From positions 26,062-90,061 of IMG/VR virus record IMGVR_UViG_3300026571_000427: DNA of 64,000 nucleotides; one strand, given 5' to 3'. Within the stretch, counting starts at the first letter, position 1; every line of letters begins with the position of its first letter. The position numbers were made by a program, and so were the translations under genes. The DNA is from a virus. Positions 31,027 through 54,310 of the stretch are shown piece by piece. Below the pieces are notes generated by a model that had not been told where the DNA came from, did no database searches, and saw only the letters and a list, made by a program, of their open reading frames with translations.

Positions 31027-31099
31027 GCTCCTTTAGCAATCTGGTGAATGCAGCGAACTCATAATTCGCCTGAGGCGTGTTCGATCCACGCAAGGAGCA
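31027..31099 (+). tRNA. tRNA with CAT anticodon (Met or Ile)
   Basis: 73 bases. Acceptor GCTCCTT/AAGGAGC, anticodon stem GCGAA/TTCGC with loop CTCATAA, T arm GCGTG-TTCGATC-CACGC, discriminator A. It lacks the mismatch at 1-72 of an initiator; elongator Met and lysidine-modified Ile cannot be told apart here. Confidence 0.88.
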
Positions 31100-31100
31100 C

Positions 31101-31130
31101 TTGACAGATTACCTGTCAAACCCTTATAAT
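31101..31130 (+). promoter_or_regulatory. Sigma70-type promoter, -35 box in an inverted repeat
   Basis: TTGACA (31101-31106), 18-base spacer, TATAAT (31125-31130). TTGACAG (31101-31107) and CTGTCAA (31113-31119) are perfect complements. Confidence 0.8.
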
Positions 31131-31152: not shown

Positions 31153-31368
31153 ATGACTCTCACAGCAAAATTCAAGAAAGACGTTCAAACCCTTCGTGGT
31201 GCAGCAAACGGTGACTTCTACCTTGATGTAAAGAATCCTAAACTCTATAAAAAGGTTCGTCGTTTTTATGAGAATGAGGGTGTAGTATTCTCTGGTGATC
31301 CACTGGATGATTATGAGATGCTTATGGAATATGTTCTTGCTGATCTTGAATCCGTTGAAGTTGCATGA
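31153..31368 (+). CDS. Small conserved cyanophage protein
   Basis: 71 residues, basic N-terminus and acidic C-terminus (KFKKDVQTLRGAANGDFYLD ... DYEMLMEYVLADLESVEVA). Own promoter at 31101. It overlaps the next gene by 4 bases. Function unknown. Confidence 0.72.
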   Translation: MTLTAKFKKDVQTLRGAANGDFYLDVKNPKLYKKVRRFYENEGVVFSGDPLDDYEMLMEYVLADLESVEVA

Positions 31369-31613
31369 CAACACGACTTCCTAAGGTTCTTTTGGAACGA
31401 GAAGGATATCGCTTCGTAGAAGTTGGTATTCTTGAGATTAACGGTAAACCCGATTACCGTCTCCAAAAACAAAATGAGTACACCAAACGCTGGAATGACA
31501 TTTATCTTTTTGATAATGTTCTACAATGCTCTACTGCAATGGAGGATATTGAATATGCTAAATGGTTGGACCCAGACCGTGTTCCTTGTTATGTGAAAGA
31601 CGATGAAGATTAA
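31365..31613 (+). CDS. Small conserved cyanophage protein
   Basis: 82 residues with a mixed alpha/beta pattern (YRFVEVGILEINGKPDYRLQ, WNDIYLFDNVLQCSTAMEDI). No motif recognised. Coupled to the previous gene by ATGA. Confidence 0.72.
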   Translation: MTTRLPKVLLEREGYRFVEVGILEINGKPDYRLQKQNEYTKRWNDIYLFDNVLQCSTAMEDIEYAKWLDPDRVPCYVKDDED

Positions 31614-31618
31614 TTAAA

Positions 31619-32275
31619 ATGTTAAATCATATTGAACGAATAAAAATTTGTTCCGAAGTAGCTATTAAACTTTATTACGATTTTAATTTCGAATATAGTC
31701 TAAAAGCAAAAGCGGATGAGACAGTAGACTATTCTAAAAATCAAAAAGAACAAGTACCCTTAGAAAAAGGAGAAGCAACATCTACTGTTATACATAATAT
31801 CAATGGGCAACCTCATACTTGGACAGAGAATAGGAAATACATTCAATTTTTGAATGCAAATATGCCTTACATTCTCAAAGAATTTGGTCTCTCCAATCAA
31901 CCAATTGAAGTAGCAAATTCTTGGATTAATCGTCATTCTAAAGGGGGAAGAACTGTAGAACACAAGCATCAATTTGTTGATATTGTTGTTAGTTCTTACC
32001 TTCATTGTCCACCAAATAGTGGAAATCTCTTGATAAGAGATCCATTAGAATATCATAGGGCAAATGATGTCGTAGAATCTGCTTTCTCTAAACAAGTAAA
32101 ATATCAGTATCCTTGGATTGAAGTTCCTGTTAAAACAAATGAACTTGTAATCTTTCCTGGATGGGTAAATCACAAAACAGAAGAAAGCAATTCTGATTTT
32201 GATAGATATGTTATGACTTTTAATCTCAAGTATATGCATGGTCCAATGATGGGTGAAAGTCCCGGGATGACTTAA
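31619..32275 (+). CDS. 2-oxoglutarate/Fe(II)-dependent oxygenase
   Basis: 218 residues. The double-stranded beta-helix signature is visible in the C-terminal half: VEHKHQFVDIVVSSYLHCPP, GNLLIRDP, and LVIFPGWVNHKTEESNSDFDRYV, giving the H...H and R ligands of the 2OG-FeII_Oxy_5 type. The first metal pair is probably H-x-H or H-x-D around EHKH. Such oxygenases are common in cyanophages; targets are unknown and could be proteins, sugars or nucleic acid. Confidence 0.87.
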   Translation: MLNHIERIKICSEVAIKLYYDFNFEYSLKAKADETVDYSKNQKEQVPLEKGEATSTVIHNINGQPHTWTENRKYIQFLNANMPYILKEFGLSNQPIEVANSWINRHSKGGRTVEHKHQFVDIVVSSYLHCPPNSGNLLIRDPLEYHRANDVVESAFSKQVKYQYPWIEVPVKTNELVIFPGWVNHKTEESNSDFDRYVMTFNLKYMHGPMMGESPGMT

Positions 32276-32303
32276 AAAGCGCACTGGTCGGGAGCAACCC
32301 CTT

Positions 32304-32540
32304 ATGGCAAAATCTGATCTACTTCGTTGGATTGGAAACATTCTCCTCATAATTGGTTATCAAACTATGCTATGGGGAGAATTTAAATATGGTTTAATGA
32401 TAAAGGTTGTTGGAGGATTACTCACAGTACCCTTTGCTATTAAACTTAAACTTTGGGATGTACTATTCTTATGTGCATTCTTTGGTATTACCGAGATATC
32501 AAAGTTAACCCAACTTTTCTTTAGTCCTGGAACGACTTAA
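32304..32540 (+). CDS. Conserved small membrane protein
   Basis: 78 residues with three hydrophobic helices (WIGNILLIIGYQTMLWG, MIKVVGGLLTVPFAI, WDVLFLCAFFGITEI). A recurrent cyanophage protein of unknown function. It is the last gene before the structured leader of the glycan operon. Confidence 0.72.
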   Translation: MAKSDLLRWIGNILLIIGYQTMLWGEFKYGLMIKVVGGLLTVPFAIKLKLWDVLFLCAFFGITEISKLTQLFFSPGTT

Positions 32541-32581
32541 AACTTATACTGGTGGAGTCAAAATGACCCTATTATGAGTTT

Positions 32582-32657
32582 ATTGCCTCTCTCAAGGGCA
32601 ATTGGTGCGGATGGGACTCTCTCCCGCCTGGTTTCTTGCCTCCAGTCAAAGGGCAAG
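32582..32657 (+). ncRNA. Leader RNA with two near-identical hairpins, wcaG-motif candidate
   Basis: ATTGCC (32582-32587)/GGCAAT (32597-32602) and CTTGCC (32635-32640)/GGCAAG (32652-32657) form two hairpins that share TTGCCTC at the 5' side and TCAARGGGCAA at the 3' side. A third hairpin (GGGA/TCCC within GCGG...CCGC, 32607-32627) lies between. A terminator follows, then the GDP-mannose-type epimerase gene. The published wcaG RNA motif is known from cyanophages upstream of exopolysaccharide genes; whether this sequence fits its consensus needs a covariance search. Confidence 0.6.
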
Positions 32658-32678
32658 TGGCGAGCCTGAGTTACATAA

Positions 32679-32706
32679 GAGGAGTTGCATAAACTCCTCT
32701 TTTTTT
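32679..32706 (+). terminator. Terminator at the end of the glycan leader
   Basis: GAGGAGTT (32679-32686) pairs with AACTCCTC (32692-32699), then seven T. It may end the upstream unit or act as an attenuator controlled by the leader. Confidence 0.85.
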
Positions 32707-32713
32707 GTATACT
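32685..32713 (+). promoter_or_regulatory. Possible sigma70 promoter overlapping the terminator
   Basis: TTGCAT (32685-32690) in the terminator loop, 17-base spacer, TATACT (32708-32713), 27 bases before the first glycan gene. A second TATACT lies at 32715. Confidence 0.55.
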
Positions 32714-32739
32714 ATATACTAAGAGAAATTTATTGGTCT

Positions 32740-33852
32740 ATGAGTGAGTACAAGAAAACGGCACTTGTGTTAGGTGCTGGTGGCTTTATTGGAAGTCATA
32801 TGGTAAGAAGATTAAAGTCTGAAGGTTATTGGGTGCGTGGTGTAGACCTCAAGTATCCAGAATTTTCAATTTCTGAAGCAGATGAATTCATTCAGGGAGA
32901 CCTGAGGGATATGAACTTTGTTCGCCGTGTTCTTGAATTTAAAGGAGAGCAAGGAAACTTTTATAACTCAGTTCCTTATCGATATATTCTACCCTTCCAT
33001 GAAATCTATCAGTTCGCTGCTGATATGGGCGGTGCAGGATTTGTTTTCACTGGAGAAAATGATGCTGATATTATGCACAACTCTGCAACCATCAACTTAA
33101 ATGTTCTTGAAGCACAGCGTCAATTGAATGAAACTTTTGATGGTGTTGATAATGGCACCGCTTGTGTTCGCCCAGTATTAGATTATAAAACTAAAATTTT
33201 CTATTCTGGATCTGCTTGTATGTATCCAGAACATAATCAATTAGATCCAGACAATCCCGATTGTCGTGAAGAGTCCGCTTATCCTGCTAACCCAGATTCC
33301 GAGTATGGTTGGGAAAAACTCTTCTCAGAGAGACTCTTCTTCGCTTATCACCGCAACTATGGTATTCCTGTGCGGGTTGCTAGGTATCATAATATCTTTG
33401 GACCTGAAGGAACCTGGACTGGTGGTAGAGAAAAAGCACCCGCAGCAATCTGTCGTAAAGTTGCCTACCTTTCAGAGGAAGGTGGAACCATCGAGGTGTG
33501 GGGAGACGGGCTACAAACTCGTTCCTTCCTGTATATTGATGAATGCATCGAAGCAACCCGCAGAATGATGAATAGTGATTTCATCGGACCTGTTAATATT
33601 GGTTCCGAAGAAATGGTAACCATTAATCAACTCGTAGATACTGCTGCTAAAGTTGCAGGTAAAGTCGTAGAGAAGAATCATATTGATGGTCCTCTTGGAG
33701 TTCGTGGACGCAATTCAAATAATGATTTGATTCGCGAAAAACTTGGTTGGGATTATTCACAGACTCTGGAAGAAGGTATCCGCAAGACTTATGAGTGGAT
33801 TAATACGCAAATGAAAAAGGTGGAAGAGGTGAAAGGTGACAGTAAAGAATGA
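32740..33852 (+). CDS. GDP-mannose 3,5-epimerase-type SDR
   Basis: 370 residues from the ATG at 32740. Rossmann start ALVLGAGGFIGSHMVRRL; FAADMGGAGFVFTGEN, YSGSACMYPEH and ESAYPANPDSEYGWEKLFSE (Y-x-x-x-K catalytic pair) are typical of plant-like GDP-mannose 3,5-epimerases and GDP-fucose synthases (WcaG family). It would convert GDP-mannose toward GDP-L-galactose or GDP-gulose. First gene of the 21-gene glycan operon and overlaps the next gene by 17 bases. Confidence 0.9.
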   Translation: MSEYKKTALVLGAGGFIGSHMVRRLKSEGYWVRGVDLKYPEFSISEADEFIQGDLRDMNFVRRVLEFKGEQGNFYNSVPYRYILPFHEIYQFAADMGGAGFVFTGENDADIMHNSATINLNVLEAQRQLNETFDGVDNGTACVRPVLDYKTKIFYSGSACMYPEHNQLDPDNPDCREESAYPANPDSEYGWEKLFSERLFFAYHRNYGIPVRVARYHNIFGPEGTWTGGREKAPAAICRKVAYLSEEGGTIEVWGDGLQTRSFLYIDECIEATRRMMNSDFIGPVNIGSEEMVTINQLVDTAAKVAGKVVEKNHIDGPLGVRGRNSNNDLIREKLGWDYSQTLEEGIRKTYEWINTQMKKVEEVKGDSKE

Positions 33853-34579
33853 TTTGGATATCGACTTTGATTATATTAATCAAAAACTTAAATCTGGACT
33901 AAAACTTAGAATTGATGTGGGTCTTTCCTGTGATATGGGAAGATCTAAACGATGGATTAATTTTATTGATGATGTTTTTGTTATTGGTATTGAACCCCAC
34001 CCAGAAAATTGTTCTTCCCTAAAGGAACTTTTAGTTAGAACAAGAGGTGGAGATAGATTCTATCTTATCGAAGCTGCAATTGATAATGTTGAAGAACCAA
34101 CTACAAAAGAATTTTATGGATTTGGTTGGGATGTTTGGCCAAATAATCCAGGATGTTCTTCACTACTCAAACCAAAGGGTAGGTTTGAGAATTCTACAGA
34201 AAATGTGTATAATGTGGATGTCATTTCTTTAAAGTCTATATTGGATAATATTGATTATGATGTAGTAGAAGTCTTAAAAACTGACACGCAGGGTAACGAT
34301 CTTAATGTTATTAAGAGTCTTGGTGACCACATTAAAAATGTCGTCTTCATTGATTCTGAATATGATGAATCTGATGACTATGAAAATGCAAATACTGGTG
34401 GTGAGTTAGATGAATATTTGGTAGAAAATAATTTTAAAAAATATCAGATGATTCTTCAACCGACAAGAGATATGATGGTTGAAGATACGCGATATATGAA
34501 CACTCTAATAGAAGACATAGATAAGTATTCGGATGATTATACATTTGAATCTCATGAAGTTATGGTTGATGTAGAATGA
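33836..34579 (+). CDS. FkbM-type SAM methyltransferase
   Basis: 247 residues from a GTG start behind GAGGTGAAAG. LRIDVGLSCDMGRSKRWI, IGIEPHPENCSSL and EVLKTDTQGNDLNVIKSL are FkbM-family motifs; members O-methylate sugars of lipopolysaccharide and exopolysaccharide. Residues after 200 (MMVEDTRYMNTLI) fit the typical C-terminus. Coupled by 17- and 4-base overlaps. Confidence 0.85.
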   Translation: MTVKNDLDIDFDYINQKLKSGLKLRIDVGLSCDMGRSKRWINFIDDVFVIGIEPHPENCSSLKELLVRTRGGDRFYLIEAAIDNVEEPTTKEFYGFGWDVWPNNPGCSSLLKPKGRFENSTENVYNVDVISLKSILDNIDYDVVEVLKTDTQGNDLNVIKSLGDHIKNVVFIDSEYDESDDYENANTGGELDEYLVENNFKKYQMILQPTRDMMVEDTRYMNTLIEDIDKYSDDYTFESHEVMVDVE

Positions 34580-35427
34580 AAATTACTATTCTTGGTTCCA
34601 GTGGGCAAATTGGTGCCTACCTTTCGGAGTATCTTCGAGAAAAAGGTCATACTGTTATTGACTTTGATAAGGTGGAAACACCCAATCATGATATGACTGT
34701 GATACCGAATCAATATCTTGAGAATGCAATTGAGACTGCAGACTTTGTATTCTTTCTTGCATTTGATGTTGGTGGGTCTCGTTACCTGAAGAAGTATCAA
34801 CATACTTTCCAGTTCATTGATAATAACGCTCGCTTGATGGCAAATGCATTTGGACTTCTTAAAAAGTATAATAAGAGATTTGTATTTGCATCATCTCAAA
34901 TGAGCAACATGAGTTACTCTCCATATGGGGTACTCAAAAATGTTGGAGAACTTTATACCAAATCTCTTAATGGACTTATTGTTAAGTTCTGGAATGTATA
35001 TGGTATCGAAAAGGACCATGACAAAGCACATGTTATCACAGACTTCATCCGTAAAGGATTTGAGACTGGTGCAATTGATATGCTTACTGATGGTCAGGAA
35101 GAACGGGAGTTTCTATATGCTGAAGACTGCTGCGAAGCACTTGAGGCAATTATGGAAAACTATAATGAATTTACCTCAGAAGATAATCTTCATATTACAA
35201 GCTTTAAGTCAACAAAAATCATTGACATTGCAAGTATTATTTGTGGACAATTTAATTTGATCGGAAAGTATGATGTAAAAGTTCAACCATCTGATCAAAA
35301 AGATAGTGTACAGATGGATAAAAGAAATAGACCAGATACCTATTTGATGAAATGGTGGACCCCTAAAACCACAATTGATCAAGGTATTGCTAAAGTATTT
35401 GAAGCAATGAAAGGAGATTATCTATGA
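34576..35427 (+). CDS. NAD-dependent epimerase/dehydratase (SDR)
   Basis: 283 residues. GSSGQIGAYLSEYL at the N-terminus is the nucleotide-binding G-x-x-G-x-x-G, FASSQMSNMSYSPYGVLK gives the S and Y-x-x-x-K active site. The C-terminal half has GQEEREFLYAEDCCEALEAI, the substrate-domain signature of sugar-nucleotide epimerases. Exact substrate unknown. Overlaps its neighbours by 4 bases on both sides. Confidence 0.87.
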   Translation: MKITILGSSGQIGAYLSEYLREKGHTVIDFDKVETPNHDMTVIPNQYLENAIETADFVFFLAFDVGGSRYLKKYQHTFQFIDNNARLMANAFGLLKKYNKRFVFASSQMSNMSYSPYGVLKNVGELYTKSLNGLIVKFWNVYGIEKDHDKAHVITDFIRKGFETGAIDMLTDGQEEREFLYAEDCCEALEAIMENYNEFTSEDNLHITSFKSTKIIDIASIICGQFNLIGKYDVKVQPSDQKDSVQMDKRNRPDTYLMKWWTPKTTIDQGIAKVFEAMKGDYL

Positions 35428-36416
35428 AGATATTTGTTACTGGATGCGCGGGACTCCTTGGGTCCAATTATACTCGACATCTTTTAGCGAACGGTCATAA
35501 GGTAATAGGTATTGATGATCTTTCTGGTGGATATAAAGCGTTTCTTCCAAAGGCAGAAAATTTTACATTTGCAAAATTTGATCTTGAAAGGAGAAAAAAA
35601 GTAGTTGAATTGTTCGAAGAACATAAACCAGATGTCCTTTTGCATTTTGCTGCATATGCTGCTGAAGGACTATCACCTTTTATTCGAAACTATAACTATA
35701 GAAACAATCTTATTTGTTCTGCCAATTTAATTAATGAATGTATCAAGCACGATACTAAAATGATTTTCACCTCTAGTATGGCAGTCTATGGTGAGCAAGA
35801 ACCACCATTCACTGAAGATAAGCGTCCTCAACCAATTGACCCATATGGTATTGCTAAGTATGCTGTCGAGTGTGATTTAAAATTAGCTCACGAACAGTTT
35901 GGACTTCGATACAATATTGTTCGTCCTCATAATGTTCTTGGAATTTACCAAAACATTTGGGACCGTTATCGAAATGTGATTGGTATTTTCATTCGCAAAA
36001 CTTTGAATGGTCAACCAATTCTTGTTTATGGTGATGGGGAACAGACTCGTGCTTTCTCCGATATCAAATATTATATGGAACCATTTGATAAACTTCTTAC
36101 AGAATATGATGGAGAAATTTTTAATATTGGTGCCGATAAACATTTTACTTTGAATGAGGTTGCTGAAACCGTACAGAAGATTGGTAAGAAATATGGATAT
36201 GAAGTTCCTATTGAACATGGTGAACCAAGACATGAAGTTAAGCACGCATATTGTGATCATACAAAAGCAAAAAGTATGTTAGAATTCAGGGATGAAACAA
36301 AACTTGAAGAACTAATTGAAAGTATGTTTATCTGGGCTATGAAGCAACCGAATAGAAAAGTGAAGAGTATGGAATATGAAGTTACTAAAGACATTTACGA
36401 TTATTGGAGAAATTAA
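35424..36416 (+). CDS. GalE-like NAD-dependent epimerase
   Basis: 330 residues. GCAGLLGSNYTRHLLANGH, IDDLSGGYK, LHFAAYAAEG, TSSMAVYGEQEPPF and DPYGIAKYAVE (Y-x-x-x-K) are all those of UDP-glucose/UDP-galactose 4-epimerases. GDGEQTRAFSDIKYYMEPF fits the substrate loop. It would interconvert UDP-hexoses for the operon's transferases. The next gene starts on the following base. Confidence 0.9.
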   Translation: MKIFVTGCAGLLGSNYTRHLLANGHKVIGIDDLSGGYKAFLPKAENFTFAKFDLERRKKVVELFEEHKPDVLLHFAAYAAEGLSPFIRNYNYRNNLICSANLINECIKHDTKMIFTSSMAVYGEQEPPFTEDKRPQPIDPYGIAKYAVECDLKLAHEQFGLRYNIVRPHNVLGIYQNIWDRYRNVIGIFIRKTLNGQPILVYGDGEQTRAFSDIKYYMEPFDKLLTEYDGEIFNIGADKHFTLNEVAETVQKIGKKYGYEVPIEHGEPRHEVKHAYCDHTKAKSMLEFRDETKLEELIESMFIWAMKQPNRKVKSMEYEVTKDIYDYWRN

Positions 36417-37088
36417 ATGACAACTAGAACTATCGAAATTACAAAACAAGATTTTGAATCTAAATCGGAACTGCTGGAATATGATTATGAATTTCTTTCC
36501 AAATTGGAAGGAATGTTTGATCATAGTGAAGGTGGATTATTTAATTGGAGAACAGCTGAAAATATGGTTCACCAATTAAAATTTCATAAAAAATATTTGC
36601 AAAAGATTCAACCAAAGTATATCTTGGAAATTGGAACTTTTAAGGGATTTTATTCTTACGTTGTTAAAAAAGAAATACCTGAAGTAAAAGTTTATACTTT
36701 TGGTATTAATGAGGAAAGTCAACTTTGTGTTGATGCAATTAATGAACTTTATGGTGAAAATTTTATTACTTTTTTTCCCGGAGATTCTTTAGAAACTTTA
36801 ACTTCTTTTGACAACCCAGATGACATTCCATTTGATATGGCATGGGTAGATGGTGGACATAGTTACGAATGTGCTATTTCCGATTTGGTAAATTGTGGAA
36901 AATTGGGAATAGAAAATATCTTAATCGATGATTGTGATATGGGACAAGTAACCGCTGCCTTAAGAGATTTTTGTAATATGGTTTTTTCCGATAATGAAAA
37001 TGATTATTCTTATTCTATTAAAGATTATAGTCCAAATGAAAGAATGATAACCTATTTGTCCAGAGAAAAAATTTATGAAAATATTTGA
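36417..37088 (+). CDS. Class I SAM methyltransferase (Methyltransf_24-like)
   Basis: 223 residues. ILEIGTFKGFYSYVVKK is motif I; PFDMAWVDGGHSYECAISDL is the D-G-x-H-x-Y signature of the Methyltransf_24/cephalosporin-hydroxylase-like group; IENILIDDCDMG follows. Likely modifies a sugar or a glycan intermediate. Very AT-rich. It overlaps the next gene by 14 bases. Confidence 0.78.
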   Translation: MTTRTIEITKQDFESKSELLEYDYEFLSKLEGMFDHSEGGLFNWRTAENMVHQLKFHKKYLQKIQPKYILEIGTFKGFYSYVVKKEIPEVKVYTFGINEESQLCVDAINELYGENFITFFPGDSLETLTSFDNPDDIPFDMAWVDGGHSYECAISDLVNCGKLGIENILIDDCDMGQVTAALRDFCNMVFSDNENDYSYSIKDYSPNERMITYLSREKIYENI

Positions 37089-37929
37089 TTCCTTTAGATT
37101 TTTTAATGAGTTAGAGATACTTGAAATACGTTTCAATCTCCTTTATGACTATGTGGATTATTTTGTTATAACAGAATGTCCATATACTACTATGGGTGAT
37201 GAAAAACCTCTTTATTATTTGGAGAACAAAGAACGTTTTTCCAAATTTAACGATAAGGTTATTCATGATGTAATGGATGAAATCCCTGTGGATTTTACTG
37301 CATTTTTAGAAAAACAAAAATTTCATACTGCATATGAAGACATTGATCCAAATTGTGGACAAAGATATATTGATATTCCTCTCCCCTATCAAAGGGATAT
37401 GTATGCAAGAAATTATACTGCAGTCTCGATTGAAAAAGCAGGAGTGACTGATGATGATATTGTTATAACAAGTGATGCTGATGAAATTGTAAATCCATTA
37501 ATTTTAGAAAATCTAAATTGGTTTAATCCTAATAATTTATATGTTGCAATGCAGAGAGCATTTTATTATAATCTTAATACTCATTATCATGATAATTGGA
37601 GAGGTTCAAGAATTTGTACTTGGAAAAAAATAAAAAATCTTTCTATAGACAAACTGAGAGATAGTATGTGGAATGAATCTTATCGAATTCAAGATGGTGG
37701 ATGGCATTGGAGTTATTTTGGTGGTGTGGAAAGATATAAACAAAAAATGGTCGCAGGTGCCGATGCTCAACCTTCAATAATAGTGAATGCCGAAGATATA
37801 GTCAGTGAAAAGAAAGACCCTTTGGGTAGAGGTGTAAATTATTTTCCTGTTCCTATAGATGAATCATTTCCACAGTACATTGTAGATAATCAAGAAAAAT
37901 ATTCAGAATTTATTACGCCATGGAATTGA
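37075..37929 (+). CDS. Glycosyltransferase family 17-like
   Basis: 284 residues. MKIFDSFRFFNELEILEIRF with VITECPYTTMGDEKPLYYLE and VITSDADEIVNPLILENL match GT17 (beta-1,4-GlcNAc transferase type), where D-A-D-E binds the metal and donor. RYIDIPLPYQRDMYARNY lies between. Cyanophage and other phage GT17 members are assumed to act on cell-surface glycans. Overlaps on both sides. Confidence 0.85.
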   Translation: MKIFDSFRFFNELEILEIRFNLLYDYVDYFVITECPYTTMGDEKPLYYLENKERFSKFNDKVIHDVMDEIPVDFTAFLEKQKFHTAYEDIDPNCGQRYIDIPLPYQRDMYARNYTAVSIEKAGVTDDDIVITSDADEIVNPLILENLNWFNPNNLYVAMQRAFYYNLNTHYHDNWRGSRICTWKKIKNLSIDKLRDSMWNESYRIQDGGWHWSYFGGVERYKQKMVAGADAQPSIIVNAEDIVSEKKDPLGRGVNYFPVPIDESFPQYIVDNQEKYSEFITPWN

Positions 37930-38852
37930 TTGAAGGTGTAGCACTTTCAAAACTATGTGATTATTCTTTCGGAGACCAGTCTGGTCAATGGGGGAATATT
38001 TTTACATCATTTATGAAAGATGCTAATTTATTGAATCTTGAATTCGTTAATAGATTATTTGAGATTAAAAAAAGCAGAGATTATATGACTCTGTTTATTG
38101 ATAATATTCGTTTATATAAAAGACATATTGTTGAGGTTAGTGATTCTGATAGACCATATGTCAATTCATTAATGGAAAGGAGTGATTTATTAAATCTTTG
38201 CTCAAATTTTCCTGAAATGAATTTTATTATTTTCACAAATCTTGAGGATACTCCCATTGATGATTATATCTTTGACTTGATACCCAATAATGTTTTGTGC
38301 ATTTCTGCAGTAAATGCTATTGCTAATGGTGGAAAAGTTATCCCAGCTCCTTATGGACTGCAGAGAGCAATGAATCCTAATGATATGAGAGTATCTGAAA
38401 TTAAAGGCGCTTCAAAAAATCTTCCAAATAATCCTCCCGGACTTTTATATGTGAGTCACAACGAATCTTCCAATGAAGAAAGGAAGGGAATAAAAGAAAT
38501 GTTCAGGAATAAATCTTGGGCAGTGGTACATGAAAATAGAGTTTCTTTTTCTGTGTTTCTTTATAATCTTAGTCAATCAAAATTTATGATATGCCCAAGA
38601 GGAAATGCTATTGATTGTCATCGTAATTGGGAAGTTCTTTATATGAGAAGAGTTCCAATTATGAAGAGGCATCTTTATTTGGAAACTTTATTTGCAGATT
38701 ACCCTGTTCTTTTTGTGGATAAATACTCCGAAGTAAATGAAAATCTATTAATAGAAAACGATCATTTATTCCAAAAAGCTCAAAAAATGGATTTGTCTGG
38801 ATTGACACTTCCAAAATTTTTTGATAATATCGTAAATAAGTACACGAATTAA
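37920..38852 (+). CDS. Exostosin-like glycosyltransferase (GT47-type)
   Basis: 310 residues. The C-terminal half SKFMICPRGNAIDCHRNWEV followed by MRRVPIMKRH and DYPVLFVDKY follows the exostosin pattern (C-P-x-G-x-x-x-x...R-x-x-E-x-L...G-x-x-P-V). The N-terminal half is divergent. Acceptor and donor unknown. Overlaps the GT17 gene by 10 bases. Confidence 0.72.
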   Translation: MELIEGVALSKLCDYSFGDQSGQWGNIFTSFMKDANLLNLEFVNRLFEIKKSRDYMTLFIDNIRLYKRHIVEVSDSDRPYVNSLMERSDLLNLCSNFPEMNFIIFTNLEDTPIDDYIFDLIPNNVLCISAVNAIANGGKVIPAPYGLQRAMNPNDMRVSEIKGASKNLPNNPPGLLYVSHNESSNEERKGIKEMFRNKSWAVVHENRVSFSVFLYNLSQSKFMICPRGNAIDCHRNWEVLYMRRVPIMKRHLYLETLFADYPVLFVDKYSEVNENLLIENDHLFQKAQKMDLSGLTLPKFFDNIVNKYTN

Positions 38853-39449
38853 ATGAAGTATCTAACTGATTTTTGTAATAAAGCTTTAAACGGAAACCTA
38901 GATTCTGATAGGCATATTATTACAATTTTTTCAATCGCTTTGGCATCTAAAGGTTCTACATATGTTGAACTTGGTGTTAGGGAAGGACATACCACAGAAC
39001 CTTTATATGAAGCAGCAAAGTTAAATAACGGACATCTGTGGTCTGTTGATCTTAATCCACCGTCAGAATTTAAACCAAATAATGGCAACTATACATTTCA
39101 TCAAGGAGATAGTATCAAGTTCCTTGAAGATTGGCCTAAGGATAAAAAAATAGATGTTGTTTATGTCGATGACTGGCATTCATATCCTCATGTTAAAAAG
39201 CAGTTAGAACTTCTTGATGAATTAGTTGGTCCAACAAGTGTTATTCTTTTGCACGATTTGATGTATGGAAGCACTGACCCATTCTACCATTCTGATCTTA
39301 CACTTAAAGATGGTCAATGGGCTGGTGGTGGTCCATATAGAGCAGTAGCAGAACTTGACCCACAATTCTGGGAATGGTCAACACTTCCTTGGAATAATGG
39401 TCTTACTATTTTGAGAAAAAAATACAGTAACAAATATCATCGGAGATAA
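38853..39449 (+). CDS. Class I SAM methyltransferase
   Basis: 198 residues. STYVELGVREGHTTEPLYEA is motif I, HLWSVDLNPP motif II, and IDVVYVDDWHSYPHVKKQLE the D-D-x-H-x-Y signature shared with the gene at 36417. VILLHDLMYGSTDPFYHSDL follows. Probably a paralogous sugar methyltransferase. It starts on the base after the previous stop. Confidence 0.78.
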   Translation: MKYLTDFCNKALNGNLDSDRHIITIFSIALASKGSTYVELGVREGHTTEPLYEAAKLNNGHLWSVDLNPPSEFKPNNGNYTFHQGDSIKFLEDWPKDKKIDVVYVDDWHSYPHVKKQLELLDELVGPTSVILLHDLMYGSTDPFYHSDLTLKDGQWAGGGPYRAVAELDPQFWEWSTLPWNNGLTILRKKYSNKYHRR

Positions 39450-39451
39450 TT

Positions 39452-40396
39452 ATGTTAGCAGTAAGTATTCATGAACACGCGGGTTTGGGAAACCAAATCT
39501 GGAGAGCGGTTTGTTGTCGTGTCTTTGCTGATCGTTTGGGTTATGATTATGCGATTAGTTCACCCGGTTGGAGAGGTCCATTTTTAAATTTTGATTTTGG
39601 AAAAGATATCTCTCTTAATGTAGAACAAGCATCTGATTTTTATGACTGTAGAGAACTTCCCGATGGTATCTTACATTATTATGAAGAAGAAAGCATCCAT
39701 CATAAAACTGCTCCTGGAGAAATTGGAGCAGCAGATAAAAATTTCTTTACAGTAAAGGATAATACTTATATTAATGGTAACTTCCAGAGGATGTCTTATA
39801 TTGAAGATTATCGAGATAAAATATGTGACTGGTTATCTTATGACGACAAATATAAAGTCCGGGACTATTCTTCGGAAAATATCTGTGTAATTCAAATTAG
39901 GGGTGGTGACTACAAAACTGGGCATTCGGTACTACCTGCTGAGTATTATCGATTTGCTATGAAGCATATGAAAGAAAATAATCCAGATATTGAGTTTGTA
40001 ATCATTACTGATGACCCAGAGTTTGCTGGTCAATTAGTTCCTGGTGTTAAGATTGTTGGATCTGCAATTTCTGAAGAAAAGGATCCTTACCAAAAGAATA
40101 TCAGTTGGTATATTTATCCTGGTGGTCCAGTATCTATTGATTATAGTATTTTGAATACTGCTAAGTATGCTATTATTTCAGCATCTACTTTTGCATTTTG
40201 GCCAGTTTGGACTAATAATGAACTTATTAATGTAATTGCACCTAAGTATTGGTTTGATTGGTCTCGCTCTAATGGTTGGTGGAGACCTGAAGATGGAATC
40301 GTAAATGATGAAAGATGGTTATGGTTGGATACTGATGGAGATTTATATCCGGGTAGTGTGTGTAAGGAAGAGCGGGATAATTATTACGTGAAATAA
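39452..40396 (+). CDS. GT11-like glycosyltransferase (alpha-1,2-fucosyltransferase family)
   Basis: 314 residues. EHAGLGNQIWRAVCCRVFAD is the N-terminal G-L-G-N-Q motif, VIQIRGGDY corresponds to the H-x-R-R-G-D donor motif (here Q-I-R-G-G-D), and YAIISASTFAFWPVW to the N-S-S-F-S-W-W motif. The variant motifs make it the most divergent of three GT11-like genes in the operon. Good ribosome site CGGAGA. Confidence 0.75.
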   Translation: MLAVSIHEHAGLGNQIWRAVCCRVFADRLGYDYAISSPGWRGPFLNFDFGKDISLNVEQASDFYDCRELPDGILHYYEEESIHHKTAPGEIGAADKNFFTVKDNTYINGNFQRMSYIEDYRDKICDWLSYDDKYKVRDYSSENICVIQIRGGDYKTGHSVLPAEYYRFAMKHMKENNPDIEFVIITDDPEFAGQLVPGVKIVGSAISEEKDPYQKNISWYIYPGGPVSIDYSILNTAKYAIISASTFAFWPVWTNNELINVIAPKYWFDWSRSNGWWRPEDGIVNDERWLWLDTDGDLYPGSVCKEERDNYYVK

Positions 40397-40399
40397 TCT

Positions 40400-41473
40400 A
40401 TGAAAATCATTAAAGAAAAAGTATTAAGCGAGAAAGAGAAGCACTATTCATATCCAATCAAGGTTGATAGTGATGAAGATGTAGTTTCTCTTAGTGATGC
40501 TAAGAGTACGGGAATGATTTTCTTGGGCGAGAGGGAAATAAACTATCCCAAGTTGTGGGATGGTGAAGAGTTTAAACTACCATTTAATGAATTTTTATTG
40601 AAAGAATATGATAATTCCTACTTTAGAATGATAGGTATTGAAAACTTTACTTATTATTGTGAGGGAAGTAGGGTAGAAGCTTTAAATATAGAACCATCAT
40701 ATGTTGACTTAGAGTTTGACCGAGTATTCTCTGCTCTAAATTATGGTGGTTATATATGGCAACACTTTGTTCAAGATGCTCTACCCATTATCGCATTTGC
40801 AAGAGAATTTCTTGAACAGAATCCTGATGTAACAATTTTATTATATGAAGGTGTTAATAAGAAATCTATATCTGACTTTTTTCTCAATAAATTAAATTTA
40901 AAAAACCCAGTATATTATGTTCCAAATTATACTCCATTTAGGTATGCTGAAATTTTAGCAAGAGCAAACAAGTTATATCTACTTGATTGTAATAATCATA
41001 TGCCTTGTTATTGGTGGAATAACTTTTTCTATCAAGAGGCTAATGAGTTTATATTGAGAGATGAGAAATTTGAAAATAAAAATTTAATTTATCTGAACAG
41101 AAACAAAACAGCAACCTCAAGAATTTTTATTAATGAAGAAGAAACTGTTGATTACTTGAAACAATATGCAGAGAAAAACGATTTGAATTTTATAGATTAT
41201 ATTGACACAAATTATACGATTGAAGAAACATTTGATATTTTTAAAAATGCACATACTGTAGTTGGGTGCCATGGCGGAGCAAATTATAATATAATATTCT
41301 GCCCTAAAGGTACAAAATTTATAGAGTATGTGTTTACAGATTGCATGTATACATTGTATAATATTGCTAGCTCTATAGAATTGGATTACTTTATAGTTCC
41401 TAATCGCGGAACTAATATGTCCGAAGGTGCTTTAGTAAAAATAAATAAACTGCAAAGATTATTGGAGAAATAG
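40400..41473 (+). CDS. Glycosyltransferase family 61-like
   Basis: 357 residues. The C-terminal HTVVGCHGGANYNIIFCPKG then FIEYVF is the GT61 (DUF563) signature (G-x-H-G-A-x-L-x-x-x-x-F). NKNLIYLNRNKTATSRIFIN gives the mid-domain R-x-x-x-x-x-R/N region. GT61 enzymes add xylose or GlcNAc in eukaryotes and act on surface glycans in bacteria. Three bases behind the previous gene. Confidence 0.82.
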   Translation: MKIIKEKVLSEKEKHYSYPIKVDSDEDVVSLSDAKSTGMIFLGEREINYPKLWDGEEFKLPFNEFLLKEYDNSYFRMIGIENFTYYCEGSRVEALNIEPSYVDLEFDRVFSALNYGGYIWQHFVQDALPIIAFAREFLEQNPDVTILLYEGVNKKSISDFFLNKLNLKNPVYYVPNYTPFRYAEILARANKLYLLDCNNHMPCYWWNNFFYQEANEFILRDEKFENKNLIYLNRNKTATSRIFINEEETVDYLKQYAEKNDLNFIDYIDTNYTIEETFDIFKNAHTVVGCHGGANYNIIFCPKGTKFIEYVFTDCMYTLYNIASSIELDYFIVPNRGTNMSEGALVKINKLQRLLEK

Positions 41474-41474
41474 A

Positions 41475-42014
41475 ATGGATTTTTATTTGGATGGAATGCG
41501 TGAAGAGTATTCCAGAGAGTTGACTAATAGTGTGAAGCAAAATACTAATGTTTATACTGTTGGATGGAGACCAGATTCTCATATGTGGCAGTATGATTTC
41601 TTTAAAGAGAGGAATTGTAATATAACTCTTATTGAAATTTTTGAACCTAATGCTAATGCATTTCCGAAGGAAGAATATAATGCTACTGTAGTATGTGATT
41701 CTGTTGAAAATTTCGCTCAGTATGTAAACAAAGAAGAGAAAGATAAAAATATTTTATATTGGTCTGATGGTCCAGAGCATCTGGAGATGGATGCTTCTAA
41801 AAAACTTTTGGAAGAAGCAAAAGAATATTTTTCTCTTATTATAATCCAAACTCCAAATGGTGTTTATGAGCAAGGTGAGATGTATGGTAATATTCATGAA
41901 TCTCATCTGAGTTCTTGGTACGAATCTGATTATGAAGAACTTGGATTTAAGTTGGATAAAACCCATGGACCTGCTCATAATTTTGATGCTCTGATTGGTT
42001 TCTGGATTGGTTGA
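41475..42014 (+). CDS. Putative methyltransferase-like protein
   Basis: 179 residues. NVYTVGWRPDSHMWQYDFFK, ITLIEIFEPNANAFPK (motif I/II region), NILYWSDGPEHLEMDASKKL and LIIIQTPNGVYEQGEMYGN, ending in W-Y-x-x-D-Y-x-x-L-G-F, resemble a class I methyltransferase fold of the DUF-type found in phage and bacterial glycan clusters. No G-x-G-x-G is visible, so activity is uncertain. Confidence 0.6.
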   Translation: MDFYLDGMREEYSRELTNSVKQNTNVYTVGWRPDSHMWQYDFFKERNCNITLIEIFEPNANAFPKEEYNATVVCDSVENFAQYVNKEEKDKNILYWSDGPEHLEMDASKKLLEEAKEYFSLIIIQTPNGVYEQGEMYGNIHESHLSSWYESDYEELGFKLDKTHGPAHNFDALIGFWIG

Positions 42015-42032
42015 GAATAATAAAAATAATAT

Positions 42033-42737
42033 ATGATTAATCTTCCTGATGTAACTCTGTTTACTATAGACACTACTGGAGAAATTGATAAAACCCTTCG
42101 TGCTTTATATACAAGTATGAGTGGTATTAATTATGGTGCTGTTAAATTAGTAACAACAAAAGAGCAAATAGAAAAACATAAAGATCAACTTGAAAATGAT
42201 GGAATTATCTTAGAAGAACCTACAATAGAAGTTAATAATTACAACGATTATAATTATTATGTAATTTATAAAATTTGTGAACATATAGAAACATCTCACT
42301 GTTTGTTAGTTCAACCAGATGGATTTGTTTTGTTCCCCGAAAAGTGGGATGATAGTTGGTTGGAATATGATTACATAGGCGCTCCTTGGGAATATGTTGA
42401 GGATTCTTATATTGATCCTTTTGGAAATCATCATCGAGTTGGTAATGGTGGATTTTCTTTGAGAAGTAAAAAACTTCTAAATGTTCCAAATAAAGTTGAA
42501 GTTCCTTGGGAGGTAAACAATAGTGATTTCTATTGGATGCCCCCTGGAGTTGTTAACTATCATGAGGACGGAAACATATGTGTACACAACAGACACATAT
42601 TTGTTGAGCAAGGATGTAAGTTTGCTCCGGTTGAAGTTGCTGTTAAATTTTCTCAGGAAGCAAGAGTTCCTGAGTGTGAAGGGATCACTCCCTTCGGATT
42701 TCATTATAGATTGCCTCCAGGAGTTGTATTAGAATGA
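42033..42737 (+). CDS. DUF5672-type glycosyltransferase
   Basis: 234 residues. HCLLVQPDGFVLFPEKWDDS, YIGAPW, RVGNGGFSLRSKKLL and the C-terminal EGITPFGFH are the DUF5672 pattern, a GT-A family related to GT2/GT25 in bacterial surface-glycan clusters. D-G (in QPDG) takes the place of the D-x-D. 18 bases behind the previous gene, the largest gap in the operon. Confidence 0.8.
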   Translation: MINLPDVTLFTIDTTGEIDKTLRALYTSMSGINYGAVKLVTTKEQIEKHKDQLENDGIILEEPTIEVNNYNDYNYYVIYKICEHIETSHCLLVQPDGFVLFPEKWDDSWLEYDYIGAPWEYVEDSYIDPFGNHHRVGNGGFSLRSKKLLNVPNKVEVPWEVNNSDFYWMPPGVVNYHEDGNICVHNRHIFVEQGCKFAPVEVAVKFSQEARVPECEGITPFGFHYRLPPGVVLE

Positions 42738-43534
42738 TAGGACATAATCACTTAGGTAAAAATGGGAGATTTGGGAATCAAATGTTCCAATATGCATCAA
42801 CGAGGGGTATCGCTGCTGCTCGTGGATATGATTTTATTATTCCTGATGGACCAAGAACCGATGAAGAGTTTTATGATGAAGAAAACCAACATAAACTTTT
42901 CATGGCATTTAAAATGTCGGGACTTAAAAATGTTGGATTATTGAAAGCACCATACAAACAAGAAAGTTCTTTCGGATATGATAAAGAACTTGTGAAAAGA
43001 TGTCCTGATGATATTAATCTCTATGGATATTTTCAATCCGAAAGATATTTCTGGCACATTGAAAATGAAATTCGCCAAGACTTTACTTGGAGAGATGATG
43101 TTTGGAATACCTGCAAAGAAATATTCGATCAAGTAGTTCCCGAAGGTAAAGCAATTTCTTTGCATGTAAGAAGAACCGATCAAGTGGAGAAAAAAGATTA
43201 TCATTATCTTCAGACAGATGAATATTTTGCTGAAGCACTTTCTAAACTTCCGCAAGATATTCCTGTAATTGTATTTTCCGATGAACCAAAGTGGTGTCAG
43301 AATAGTAATTTGTTTGAGGATGATAGATTTTTAATTTCGGAATCAAGTGATAATATTCATGATATGTGCCTCATGTCCATGTGCCAATATCATATCATTG
43401 CTGCAAGTACTTTTAGTTGGTGGGGTGCTTGGCTTGCTAAAAGTGAAAAAGTTATTTGTCCCAAGAATTGGTTTGGACCAAGTTCGGATGTTGATGATAA
43501 AGATTTAGTTCCTGATGGTTGGGAGAGAATCTGA
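42734..43534 (+). CDS. GT11 alpha-1,2-fucosyltransferase-like
   Basis: 266 residues. GRFGNQMFQYASTRGIAA near the N-terminus, ISLHVRRTDQVEKKDYHYL (H-x-R-R-x-D) near 140 and IIAASTFSWWGAWLA near 230 are the three GT11 motifs. These enzymes transfer L-fucose from GDP-fucose to galactose; the donor here could be the GDP-sugar made by the epimerase at 32740. Clear paralogue of the gene at 45081. Confidence 0.92.
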   Translation: MIGHNHLGKNGRFGNQMFQYASTRGIAAARGYDFIIPDGPRTDEEFYDEENQHKLFMAFKMSGLKNVGLLKAPYKQESSFGYDKELVKRCPDDINLYGYFQSERYFWHIENEIRQDFTWRDDVWNTCKEIFDQVVPEGKAISLHVRRTDQVEKKDYHYLQTDEYFAEALSKLPQDIPVIVFSDEPKWCQNSNLFEDDRFLISESSDNIHDMCLMSMCQYHIIAASTFSWWGAWLAKSEKVICPKNWFGPSSDVDDKDLVPDGWERI

Positions 43535-44289
43535 TGAGATTTTCTATTGCTATTCCTGCCCATGACCGTGGAGAAAATGGTTCAATATGGATGAGAGAAC
43601 TGCTTGATTCCATTAAGAGGCAAACTCTTCTTGATTTGGAAATTGTTGTTTCTGACCAGAGTAAAAATGATAATATCTTGAATGTCTGTCAAGAATACTC
43701 TGATGACTTTGAGTTTAAGTATGTGAGGTATGAAGGAAAAGTTCCCTGCGAAAATATTAATATTGCTTTAGATGAGTGTGAGGGAGAGATAATTAAGATT
43801 ATGTTCTCTGATGATATTTTTGTGAACGATTCTGCTCTTGAAATAATAGACCAAGAATATAAACAAACTAATTGTAAGTGGGCATTTAGTGGATTCTGTG
43901 GAACTAAAGATGGCAAACAATTTTATGATTACAAAACTCCAAAGTGGTCTGACTATATGTTGGAGGGAAGAAATCTTTTAAGTAGTCCAACAGTTGTCTC
44001 TTTTTTGAATACTTCTAAACAACACTTTGATGAAAATTTGAAACTATTTTTAGACACAGAATTTTATCATCGCATGAGGTGGGAAAATGGTATGCCTCAT
44101 ATTATTGAAGATACATTAGTTGCAAATAGAGATCATGATGATAGAATTAGTAGTCAACAAACCTCTCAATATGATGCTGCAATTGAACATCCGGAAGGTG
44201 GGTGGTTAATCAATACCAAAGAATATCATTATATACAGGATAAGCATAGAGATTTTTGCATGAACAGGAAGTATCCAGATGAAAATTGA
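43534..44289 (+). CDS. Glycosyltransferase family 2
   Basis: 251 residues from the ATG at 43534, supported by GGGAGAG upstream; its first A is the last base of the previous stop. FSIAIPAHDRGENGSIWMRE, LEIVVSDQSKNDN and EIIKIMFSDDIFVND form the GT-A fold, with S-D-D as the metal-binding motif. Overlaps the next gene by 11 bases. Confidence 0.87.
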   Translation: MRFSIAIPAHDRGENGSIWMRELLDSIKRQTLLDLEIVVSDQSKNDNILNVCQEYSDDFEFKYVRYEGKVPCENINIALDECEGEIIKIMFSDDIFVNDSALEIIDQEYKQTNCKWAFSGFCGTKDGKQFYDYKTPKWSDYMLEGRNLLSSPTVVSFLNTSKQHFDENLKLFLDTEFYHRMRWENGMPHIIEDTLVANRDHDDRISSQQTSQYDAAIEHPEGGWLINTKEYHYIQDKHRDFCMNRKYPDEN

Positions 44290-45094
44290 TTTAAAGGAAG
44301 CAACATTTATTATTCCTATTCGGATTGAATCTCAAGATAGGTTGCGTAATGTTATTACAACAACGGCGTTTCTTCTGGAAAATTTTGATACTAATATCAC
44401 CATCAAAGAAGTAGATTCAGAATCAGTTTTTCAAAAGGATGCTCTTCCCATTCTCAAGGATATTTTGGATGTTGAAATAAATGTGAACCATATCTTTGAG
44501 AAGAGTGATGATCCTCTATTTCATCGTCAAAGAGTTCTGAATGAAATGATTGCCGAATCCAAAACAGAAATCGTTGTAAATTATGACTGTGATGTTTTGC
44601 TTCCTTTAGATTCATATCATGAAGCATATCAATCTATTCTTCATCATACTCACGATGTAATCTATCCTTATGGACAAGGAATGCATCAGTATCAGGTTAG
44701 AGCAACTGATGAGATTGTCTCTGAATTTTTAGAAACAAAAGATTATCAAGTGCTCGATAAGAATTCTAATCTTCATACTTCTGACTTTGGTTGGGTTCAG
44801 TTCTTTAATCGTAAAGTCTACATTGATGGTGGGATGGAAAATGAAAATTTCAAAGCATATGCACCAGAAGATAAAGAAAGATTTTACAGGTTTACTACTT
44901 TAGATTATAATGTAGGTAGGATTACTGATTATGTTTATCACTTAGAACATAGTCGAGGGGAAAATTCTTGGTTTAGTAATCCACATATGCAATCAAATAT
45001 GCAAGAGTGGGAAAAAATTCAAACTATGAATAAAGAGCAATTAAAAGAATATTATTCTAAGCAAAATTATCTTAAAAAATATGTTAGCATTTAA
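44279..45094 (+). CDS. GT2-like glycosyltransferase
   Basis: 271 residues. ATFIIPIRIESQDRLRNVIT at the N-terminus and EIVVNYDCDVLLPLDSYHEA (D-x-D) are GT-A motifs. FGWVQFFNRKVYIDGGMENE with the G-G-M-x-N-E resembles the galactosyltransferase-type acceptor domain (Glyco_transf_7C). Ends with a basic helix. Overlaps the next gene by 14 bases. Confidence 0.82.
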   Translation: MKIDLKEATFIIPIRIESQDRLRNVITTTAFLLENFDTNITIKEVDSESVFQKDALPILKDILDVEINVNHIFEKSDDPLFHRQRVLNEMIAESKTEIVVNYDCDVLLPLDSYHEAYQSILHHTHDVIYPYGQGMHQYQVRATDEIVSEFLETKDYQVLDKNSNLHTSDFGWVQFFNRKVYIDGGMENENFKAYAPEDKERFYRFTTLDYNVGRITDYVYHLEHSRGENSWFSNPHMQSNMQEWEKIQTMNKEQLKEYYSKQNYLKKYVSI

Positions 45095-45938
45095 TCAGAT
45101 TGGAAATCTTGGTAGACTTGGAAATCAAATGTTCGAATATGCAGCAGTGAGAGGTATTGCTGCCAAGCATGGATATAATTGGTGTATCCCCCCATTCAAC
45201 AGAAACGGTATTGAAAATTACAGTCTTCATCAGTGTTTTAAGTTAGAATCTGTTAAGGAGGAAAACTTAGCAGTCAGAGATGATTTTGGATATGTTCAGG
45301 AAAGGTTCTTTCACTTTGATGATGAACTCTTTGAAAATTGCCCAAATGATGTAAGTATTCACGGGTTCTTTCAATCTGAAAAATATTTCAAACATATTTC
45401 AGATGAAATTAGAAAAGACTTTACATTTCACGATGAGCATCTTGGACCATGTAAAGAAATGATGAGTTCCCTTGAAGGACAAGAACCGATTATGCTTCAT
45501 GTTCGTAGAGGTGATCCTAATCTTACAGACCCTCGTGGATTTAAGTGGAGTTATACTCAGTGTTCTTCGCAACATCCTCCACAAACAATTGAATACTATG
45601 AAAAAGCATTAGCAGAGTTTGATGATGAGCAACCAGTTGTTATTTTTTCCGACTCTCCCGAATGGGTAAAGGAACAGGAGTTTTTCTCTGGTGATCGCTT
45701 TCTTCATTCTGAACCACAGGAAAAATATGCAGATGGTTCCTATACTCCATACTCCGATTTGTGCTTGATGTCTCTGTGTTCTCATGCTATTATTGCTAAT
45801 AGTAGTATGAGTTGGTGGGGTGCTTGGTTAATTTCTAATCCAAATAAAAAGGTCATTGCACCTAAAAATTGGTTTGGACCTTCTTATGCCGATAAAGATA
45901 CTAAAGACCTTTATGTAGAAAACTGGATTGTGTTATGA
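45081..45938 (+). CDS. GT11 alpha-1,2-fucosyltransferase-like
   Basis: 285 residues. GRLGNQMFEYAAVRGIAAKH, IMLHVRRGDPNLTDPRGF (H-x-R-R-G-D), and IIANSSMSWWGAWLI (N-S-S-x-S-W-W-G) are textbook GT11 motifs, the best conserved of the three. Same neighbourhood and motif spacing as the paralogue at 42734, so the pair likely arose by duplication. Confidence 0.94.
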   Translation: MLAFNQIGNLGRLGNQMFEYAAVRGIAAKHGYNWCIPPFNRNGIENYSLHQCFKLESVKEENLAVRDDFGYVQERFFHFDDELFENCPNDVSIHGFFQSEKYFKHISDEIRKDFTFHDEHLGPCKEMMSSLEGQEPIMLHVRRGDPNLTDPRGFKWSYTQCSSQHPPQTIEYYEKALAEFDDEQPVVIFSDSPEWVKEQEFFSGDRFLHSEPQEKYADGSYTPYSDLCLMSLCSHAIIANSSMSWWGAWLISNPNKKVIAPKNWFGPSYADKDTKDLYVENWIVL

Positions 45939-46693: not shown

Positions 46694-46700
46694 TTATTAT

Positions 46701-51907: not shown

Positions 51908-51926
51908 TAAACTGAAAGTGTGATAA

Positions 51927-53219
<1,293 letters not shown>

Positions 53220-53237
53220 ACCTTAACCTTCTCTTAG

Positions 53238-53266
53238 TGGACTTTAATTTTCATTTCCTTTAGAAT
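53238..53266 (+). promoter_or_regulatory. Possible sigma70 promoter of pstS
   Basis: TGGACT (53238-53243), 17-base spacer, TAGAAT (53261-53266), 23 bases before the pstS ATG. No pho-box-like direct repeat is obvious. Confidence 0.5.
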
Positions 53267-53289
53267 TTCTTTGTAGTTATTCACTTTTT

Positions 53290-54252: not shown

Positions 54253-54284
54253 TTCCTAACAAAACTAGGTATAAATGACTACGA

Positions 54285-54310
54285 GGGGTGCTTGACACCC
54301 CTTTATTTTT
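54285..54310 (+). terminator. Terminator sharing bases with the hli promoter
   Basis: GGGGTG (54285-54290), loop CTTGA, CACCCC (54296-54301), then TTTATTTTT. The loop contains the start of the next -35 box. Confidence 0.85.

Follow-up and report, generated by a model that had tools for sequence, protein, structure and literature searches.

A wcaG RNA as the possible 3′-terminal module of a longer structured RNA, with a promoter predicted behind it for a viral glycan operon

The window, a stretch of 64,000 nucleotides from the virus record IMGVR_UViG_3300026571_000427 of IMG/VR, carries a canonical wcaG RNA in front of a glycan operon. On balance, this RNA is read here as the 3′-terminal module of a longer structured RNA that would end an upstream transcript, with the glycan operon relaunched behind it. 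The identity of the wcaG RNA, the covarying modules upstream of it, their linkage to it and a terminator–promoter composite behind it are established at the level of sequence, and the actual points of transcription start and stop are what we infer. Confidence in the reading is held at a moderate level because a third of the listed loci lack the composite and because its basis is sequence. The features concerned are as follows.

31027–31100: tRNA-Met, directly before the promoter at 31101–31130
31101–31130, plus strand: predicted sigma-70 promoter of the proposed upstream unit, TTGACA-18-TATAAT, matching the consensus at 12 of 12 positions
31153–31368, plus strand: ORF of 71 amino acids in the proposed upstream unit
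31365–31613, plus strand: homologue of gp206 / T4-LIKE GC 250, 82 amino acids, with 63.5% identity over 74 amino acids to the S-SM2 protein (E 8e-38)
31619–32275, plus strand: 2OG-Fe(II) oxygenase gene (PF13759, 3e-12; phrog_81, 1.1e-20), with its stop codon inside module 1
32258–32308, plus strand: module 1 of the RNA array (model R2, 49.5 bits, E 2.3e-15; this copy is part of R2's own alignment)
32304–32540, plus strand: small ORF of 78 amino acids, membrane-protein-like by eye (phrog_2318, 3.8e-20), with its stop codon inside module 2
32523–32573, plus strand: module 2 of the RNA array (model R2, 42.9 bits, E 3.9e-13; this copy is part of R2's own alignment)
32574–32671, plus strand: canonical wcaG RNA (match to RF01761, model positions 1–98 of 98)
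32576–32602, plus strand: hairpin A, covarying stem 32582–32587/32597–32602, with an extra pseudoknot between GAG at 32576–32578 and CTC in the loop
32628–32657, plus strand: hairpin B, covarying stem 32635–32640/32652–32657, with a proposed pseudoknot between CUGG at 32628–32631 and CCAG at 32642–32645
32677–32706, plus strand: intrinsic terminator, hairpin 32677–32701 and U-tract to 32706
32685–32713, plus strand: sigma-70-like promoter fused to the terminator, with TTGCAT in the hairpin, a 17-nt spacer and TATACT, and a predicted start at about 32720
32740–50318, plus strand: 21 co-directional ORFs over 17.6 kb, annotated by Pfam searches
32740–33852, plus strand: NAD-dependent epimerase gene (PF01370, 8.8e-35), the first gene behind wcaG

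An earlier note, made from the letters of the window, had suggested that a pair of repeat-sharing hairpins before the epimerase gene might be a wcaG RNA in a tandem or variant form. The family assignment was borne out by a search with the Rfam model RF01761, which gave a full-length match on the plus strand at 102.9 bits against a gathering cut-off of 42 (E 1.2e-18 over 64 kb) and placed the start at 32574, slightly upstream of the 32582 given before. The repeats are present as described, with GTTTATTGCCTC at 32578–32589 and GTTTCTTGCCTC at 32631–32642 spaced 53 nt apart, and AAGGGCAATTGG at 32594 and AAGGGCAAGTGG at 32649 spaced 55 nt apart, and so is the third stem between the hairpins, in which GGG at 32613–32615 pairs with CCC at 32623–32625. 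Both similar hairpins are nonetheless the canonical family's own two hairpins, and the full-length match rules out a tandem or variant form. This is the only copy in the 90-kb virus record from which the window is taken.

The stems of the RNA covary strongly among relatives. In 75 aligned sequences including that of the window, 98.7% of stem cells are paired compared with 82.4% after shuffling, and the covariation score is 0.481 compared with 0.182; the two outer stems covary, and the central GGG/CCC stem is invariant. The CUGG/CCAG pairs of hairpin B are nearly invariant, so that covariation neither supports nor contradicts this pseudoknot. For the window's single sequence the folding energy is not striking (z −1.70, with 12 of 200 shuffles as good). 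In hairpin A, the three bases before UUU pair with three loop bases (GAG/CUC, AGG/CCU, UGG/CCA and few others). Strict 3-bp Watson–Crick pairing was found in 60 of 86 motifs, with 24.3 ± 3.8 expected from shuffling and 38 in the best of 5000 shuffles, and a lenient test that allowed wobble pairs gave 80 of 84 (66.7 shuffled, best shuffle 74). Counted over unique combinations, the lenient result of 46 of 50 merely equals the best shuffle, and a 4-bp test stays within the range of the shuffles, at 21 of 86 motifs where the best shuffle reached 22. Hairpin A could not be parsed in 19 (lenient) and 17 (strict) of the 103 motifs, several of which carry another head. The Rfam structure line for wcaG, as printed, is without this pseudoknot, although the line may omit pseudoknots.

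Relatives were sampled with one conserved-core DNA pattern, which retrieved at least 120 viral contigs and constitutes a sample rather than a census. Among the matches listed, 121 wcaG places including that of the window were found, of which 107 are unique. Each of seven phage records (the window's 90-kb fragment and six phage isolates) contains one wcaG copy. One pattern scan of cellular genomes returned 47 contigs, none titled as a cyanobacterium, and a search of cellular genomes with model R1 gave 27 matches at E up to 10, of which only one was high (contig L134, 73.8 bits; the next scored 20.1). Over 8 kb this contig, titled as a Rhodobacteraceae metagenome-assembled genome (MAG), shares 98.8% identity with L063, a viral contig of IMG/VR, so that a phage contig was probably binned into the MAG. 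No match was found in a plasmid collection. In L019, L020, L027, L088, L120, L170 and L174, extra hairpin units, hairpin B-like by eye, can be seen between hairpin B and a tRNA gene.

Upstream of wcaG lie modules of about 50 nt, each made of a 7-nt loop on a 4-bp stem (e.g. AGUC/GACU), then A-rich sequence and CUGGU; the commoner type also has a GGG/CCC hairpin. Module 1 of the window has the AGUC/GACU stem, a loop C that pairs with the G four bases before UGGU, and the GGG/CCC hairpin. One or two modules were found within 900 nt upstream of wcaG in 91 of the 100 listed loci with enough sequence, in a count limited to modules with C-G or U-A as this pair. The pattern used to collect candidates fixed the loop size, GGR in the loop and the CUGGU end, leaving the stem and the paired letters free. 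Perfect stems were present in 87 of the 231 candidates so collected, compared with 17 ± 3.2 after shuffling, in a count that is independent of any stem or pyrimidine requirement. Among these 87, loop position 2 and the position four bases ahead of UGGU form C-G in 53, U-A in 33 and A-U in 1, the last of which looks like a chance match. In 69 aligned units the same pair is never broken (C-G 47, U-A 22), stem and pair together are 98.8% paired, and covariation is 0.449 compared with 0.130 shuffled; the selection pattern for these units already asked in part for the stem and for a pyrimidine as the second loop base, and the counts lean on that choice. One row of the alignment (L003 in A2) was trimmed at the wrong end.

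The modules are tightly linked to wcaG. In about 930 kb of listed contigs with 106 wcaG loci, 110 module matches lie on the wcaG strand and none on the opposite strand, and 99 of the 110 fall within 500 nt upstream of wcaG. Model R2, built from the 69 units, was run on the seven phage records (the window's record, G000, and the six isolates). With E limited to 0.01 it gave 13 matches, each of which either starts no more than about 330 nt upstream of the record's one wcaG or overlaps the 5′ portion of that RNA. Six of the training units come from four of the records searched (two from the window, two from S-SM2 and one each from S-PM2 and S-CAM1), and 5 of the 13 matches fall in the three records absent from training. 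Nothing besides wcaG and tRNA was found by Rfam at the gathering threshold in 18 array loci, and at E up to 10 there was no credible match for the modules in 32200–32750 of the window. The short consensus pattern GGRAYGACWTRA occurs twice in the window (0.11 expected), and the patterns GGTGGCGNGC and ACTGGTSGRGNCAA, allowing mismatches, are at chance level. No earlier description of the upstream modules was found in the literature searched (text without figures or supplements, with most subscription papers outside its scope); judged from sequence comparison, the covarying modules upstream of wcaG and their linkage to it are new here. The GGA in the module loops prompted consideration of a CsrA sponge, which was rejected on the absence of CsrA (PF02599) from all seven phage records searched.

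The array can be interleaved with ORFs, as in the window, where the 78-amino-acid ORF at 32304–32540 sits between the two modules. The elements are more than 100 nt apart in 44 of 100 listed loci, and all 44 gaps hold an ORF of at least 40 amino acids. The start of the gap ORF lies 44–54 nt after the first base of the module in 31 of 44, and the stop lies inside the next element or within 35 nt of it in 41 of 44. These ORFs belong to five families with 33, 4, 3, 3 and 1 members. In L028 the slot between module and wcaG is filled by a mannose-6-phosphate isomerase-like ORF (PF01050, 1.2e-26). Another gap ORF is 2OG-Fe(II) oxygenase-like, just below the Pfam cut-off.

Further upstream, a gp206-like gene lies within 1.5 kb of wcaG in 77 of 102 listed loci and downstream in none of 93. 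Co-directional tRNAs accompany wcaG on the upstream side at 67 of 102 loci and on the downstream side at 15 of 93, and an epimerase lies downstream in 43 of 93. Nearest-ORF clustering fails to separate the sides, with 104 upstream proteins in 20 clusters and 80 downstream proteins in 23 (listed loci); the nearest ORFs being about equally varied on both sides, only gp206 among the neighbour counts favours the upstream side. Twelve isolates were compared, of which 10 have the gp206-like gene and 7 a tRNA upstream. Their downstream neighbours are an epimerase or other sugar gene in Bellamy, S-SM2, SynMITS9220M01, S-SRM01, S-SKS1 and DSL-LC03; tRNA-Gly in S-CAM1, S-RSM4 and S-CAM3; a tRNA reading as Gly by sequence in S-PM2; tRNA-Met in S-CREM1; and in S-SZBM1 a small unknown gene, behind which stands a high-light-inducible gene.

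Directly behind wcaG the window has the strong terminator and the promoter-like pair that had been described from the letters, the two being fused so that the −35 element (TTGCAT, 32685–32690) lies in the terminator hairpin and the −10 element (TATACT, 32708–32713) follows the U-tract. The −35 is poor, matching the consensus at 3 of 6 positions, and a sigma-70 scan requiring at least 4 of 6 omits this pair. Of the 107 unique listed places, 102 were classifiable and 5 were too short for judgement. Such a composite stands behind wcaG in 66 of the 102, with a terminator without composite in 16 and no terminator in the stretch examined in 20. The spacer is 17 nt in 65 of the 66 listed composites, the window's included, and the −10 is TATAAT in 50. 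Strong terminators carry the composite in 57 of 67 cases near wcaG compared with 11 of 54 elsewhere on the same listed contigs, so the arrangement is not exclusive to wcaG. A length-matched scan found promoter-like sites behind wcaG in 74 of 94 listed stretches (25.2 expected). Before wcaG there is no such enrichment in the last 140 nt (19 of 94 listed loci, 18.6 expected), and an uncontrolled count over a longer stretch, which starts 120 nt ahead of the first module and ends at wcaG, found a promoter-like site in 33 of 94 listed loci; transcription may thus also start just before the module array. Searches of the literature (text without figures or supplements, most subscription papers being outside its scope) turned up no earlier description of the composite behind wcaG, and no start-site map of a wcaG phage was found in the text searched, which included parts of PMC3037559 and PMC10976474. 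The window contains six strong terminators, two of which (32677 and 54284) are promoter composites. The second of these fusions, from 54284–54302 onward, has TTGACA-17-TATAAT and no wcaG. At the terminators at 15122 and 55886, the U-tract runs into T4-like late-promoter sequence TATAAATA.

The 21 ORFs downstream are rich in glycan functions. Pfam matches were obtained for 17 (E up to 0.001; the last up to 0.01) and not for 4, and comprise 4 nucleotide-sugar enzymes, 6 glycosyltransferases and 4 methyltransferases above the cut-off, together with an NAD synthase-like protein, DUF5672 and one weak match. The first gene is indeed the epimerase that had been expected there. The NAD synthase-like gene (PF02540, 8.8e-48) lies inside the glycan cluster at 45935–46690. 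A strict scan past 32677 found no further strong terminator before 54284, so the unit may run over three more ORFs. Behind the glycan cluster, 50411–54249 holds OprB-porin-like, S-adenosylhomocysteine hydrolase and PBP-superfamily genes.

Under the favoured reading of wcaG as the 3′ module of an upstream transcript, the proposed upstream unit would be about 1.6 kb long from the promoter at 31101–31130 to the terminator, in the order promoter, gp206-like gene, oxygenase gene, module 1, small ORF, module 2, wcaG and terminator. RNA polymerase arriving from upstream would make the modules and wcaG and stop at 32700–32706, and the glycan operon would be started afresh by the sigma-70 promoter with its −35 in the terminator hairpin and its −10 past the U-tract. 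With the operon started at the terminator-fused promoter, the primary glycan mRNA would lack wcaG. The earlier note had reckoned with transcription starting only at about 32720, in which case the hairpins would never be in the operon mRNA, and it is this case that the promoter prediction matches. Several observations count against the 3′-module reading. The downstream genes are often glycan genes, which a leader would explain more directly, and 20 of 102 listed loci have no terminator and 16 no composite. The window's −35 matches at only three positions, the stop codon of an ORF of at least 40 amino acids lies inside the module in only 42 of 135 modules at listed loci, and the loci are a sample drawn with a single core pattern.

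The leader idea takes wcaG as a metabolite-sensing riboswitch of the glycan operon, in which a ligand-changed fold decides whether the terminator at 32677 forms. A table entry in PMC2864571 gives wcaG as ‘switch? y’ (probably), and in the text of that paper it has been a riboswitch candidate since 2010; no tested function of wcaG was found in the literature searched, which included parts of PMC2864571, PMC9964418 and PMC9602691. The terminator within a few nucleotides of the RNA and the epimerase downstream at nearly half of the listed loci fit such a switch. The arms of wcaG-linked terminators also pair better with the motif than unlinked arms do (−9.2 compared with −7.8 kcal/mol, listed loci), an advantage that may come from their purine-rich make-up. 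Attenuation by the adjacent terminator, which had been suggested as possible, nevertheless finds no locus-specific pairing: in 74 listed loci the arms pair with their own motif as with swapped ones (−10.19 and −10.12 kcal/mol, sd 0.14), and a second comparison gave −7.19 and −7.35 kcal/mol (sd 0.11). In the same 74 loci, which were chosen for terminators 25–70 nt after the core, the terminator begins just 0–19 nt behind the motif. The fifth of classifiable loci without a terminator and the promoter-like composite behind wcaG at most of them also speak against a riboswitch. What was suggested of a gated 21-gene, 17.6-kb operon divides: the co-directional, glycan-rich genes are there, and gating is unsupported, with the composite between RNA and genes in 66 of 102 listed loci. 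From the sequence evidence, wcaG is probably not the operon's switch, and a metabolite-sensing riboswitch is unlikely, the least probable of the readings weighed here. Read-through from upstream would put wcaG in a longer operon mRNA, and wcaG may control such read-through.

A processive role of this kind, with wcaG and the modules acting like put or EAR RNA, would have the nascent RNA modify polymerase coming from upstream so that it passes the terminator into the glycan operon, the local promoter giving a second, unmodified supply. It is consistent with a compact multi-hairpin RNA right before a terminator and a 17.6-kb operon in which the strict scan found no other strong terminator until 54284, and with modules and wcaG lying on the same strand. 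Against it, wcaG also precedes tRNAs (8 listed loci) and terminator-free loci (20 of 102), and the local promoter would make read-through needless for expression; from this analysis we regard antitermination as unlikely, though with a somewhat better claim than the riboswitch. Release or separate transcription of wcaG as a trans-acting small RNA would suit its single copy in all seven phage records (one a 90-kb fragment), its covarying structure and the terminator directly behind it. Without promoter enrichment in the last 140 nt upstream, such a small RNA would mostly need to be cut from a longer RNA, although the 33 of 94 loci with a promoter-like site in the longer stretch, an uncontrolled count, leave room for a start of its own. 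A small RNA of this type appears improbable, a shade less so than the riboswitch.

For the preferred 3′-module reading, the role of the RNA is a guess and a weaker inference: most likely it is either a compact 3′ terminus, folded into pseudoknots, that serves to stabilise the mRNA from upstream or to mature it, which is our first guess, or a released small RNA. More tentatively, and with somewhat less than even conviction, wcaG at large may be just the 3′ part of a bigger modular RNA that cyanophages carry in single copy, composed of one or two pseudoknot-like upstream modules, an optional slot for interchangeable small ORFs, wcaG, and a terminator that doubles as the promoter of the next operon. 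It would then belong to a new class of phage 3′-end or small RNAs and would not be an orphan riboswitch. If this is true, the usual presence of a promoter between wcaG and its supposed target genes, together with the modules upstream, means that a ligand search guided by the downstream genes may be misdirected, and an RNA spanning about 32258–32706 would be a better construct for probing than the 98-nt core alone. The fused terminator–promoter would be a compact phage means of insulating and relaunching transcription.

Among known systems, the HK022 put RNA and the EAR of Bacillus eps operons act in processive antitermination as compact structured RNAs near the start of a long phage or exopolysaccharide operon. 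They are sited downstream of the operon promoter, whereas in the window the RNA comes before the predicted operon promoter, and the likeness is one of description. The STAXI motif, as described in the text of PMC2864571, resembles the modules in being an array of repeated pseudoknot-like units, and differs in gene context from the wcaG modules; this comparison, too, is by description. The manA RNA (RF01745) is likewise a candidate cis-regulatory RNA of cyanophages, and phage S-CREM1 carries it within a group of tRNAs, about 370 nt past wcaG. At the gathering threshold it is absent from the window and from the 18 array loci, and the upstream modules have no match to it. The closest likeness is to the wcaG motif itself, described from T4-like cyanophages before glycan genes as two hairpins with a central stem (RF01761; Weinberg 2010, in the text of PMC2864571), which the window shares in its full-length match, its T4-like cyanophage setting, the glycan genes that follow, and the hairpins and central stem. 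The RNA described here differs from that motif in extending upstream by one or two covarying modules (91 of 100 listed loci), in the extra pseudoknot of hairpin A, and in the terminator–promoter fusion behind it in 66 of 102 listed loci.
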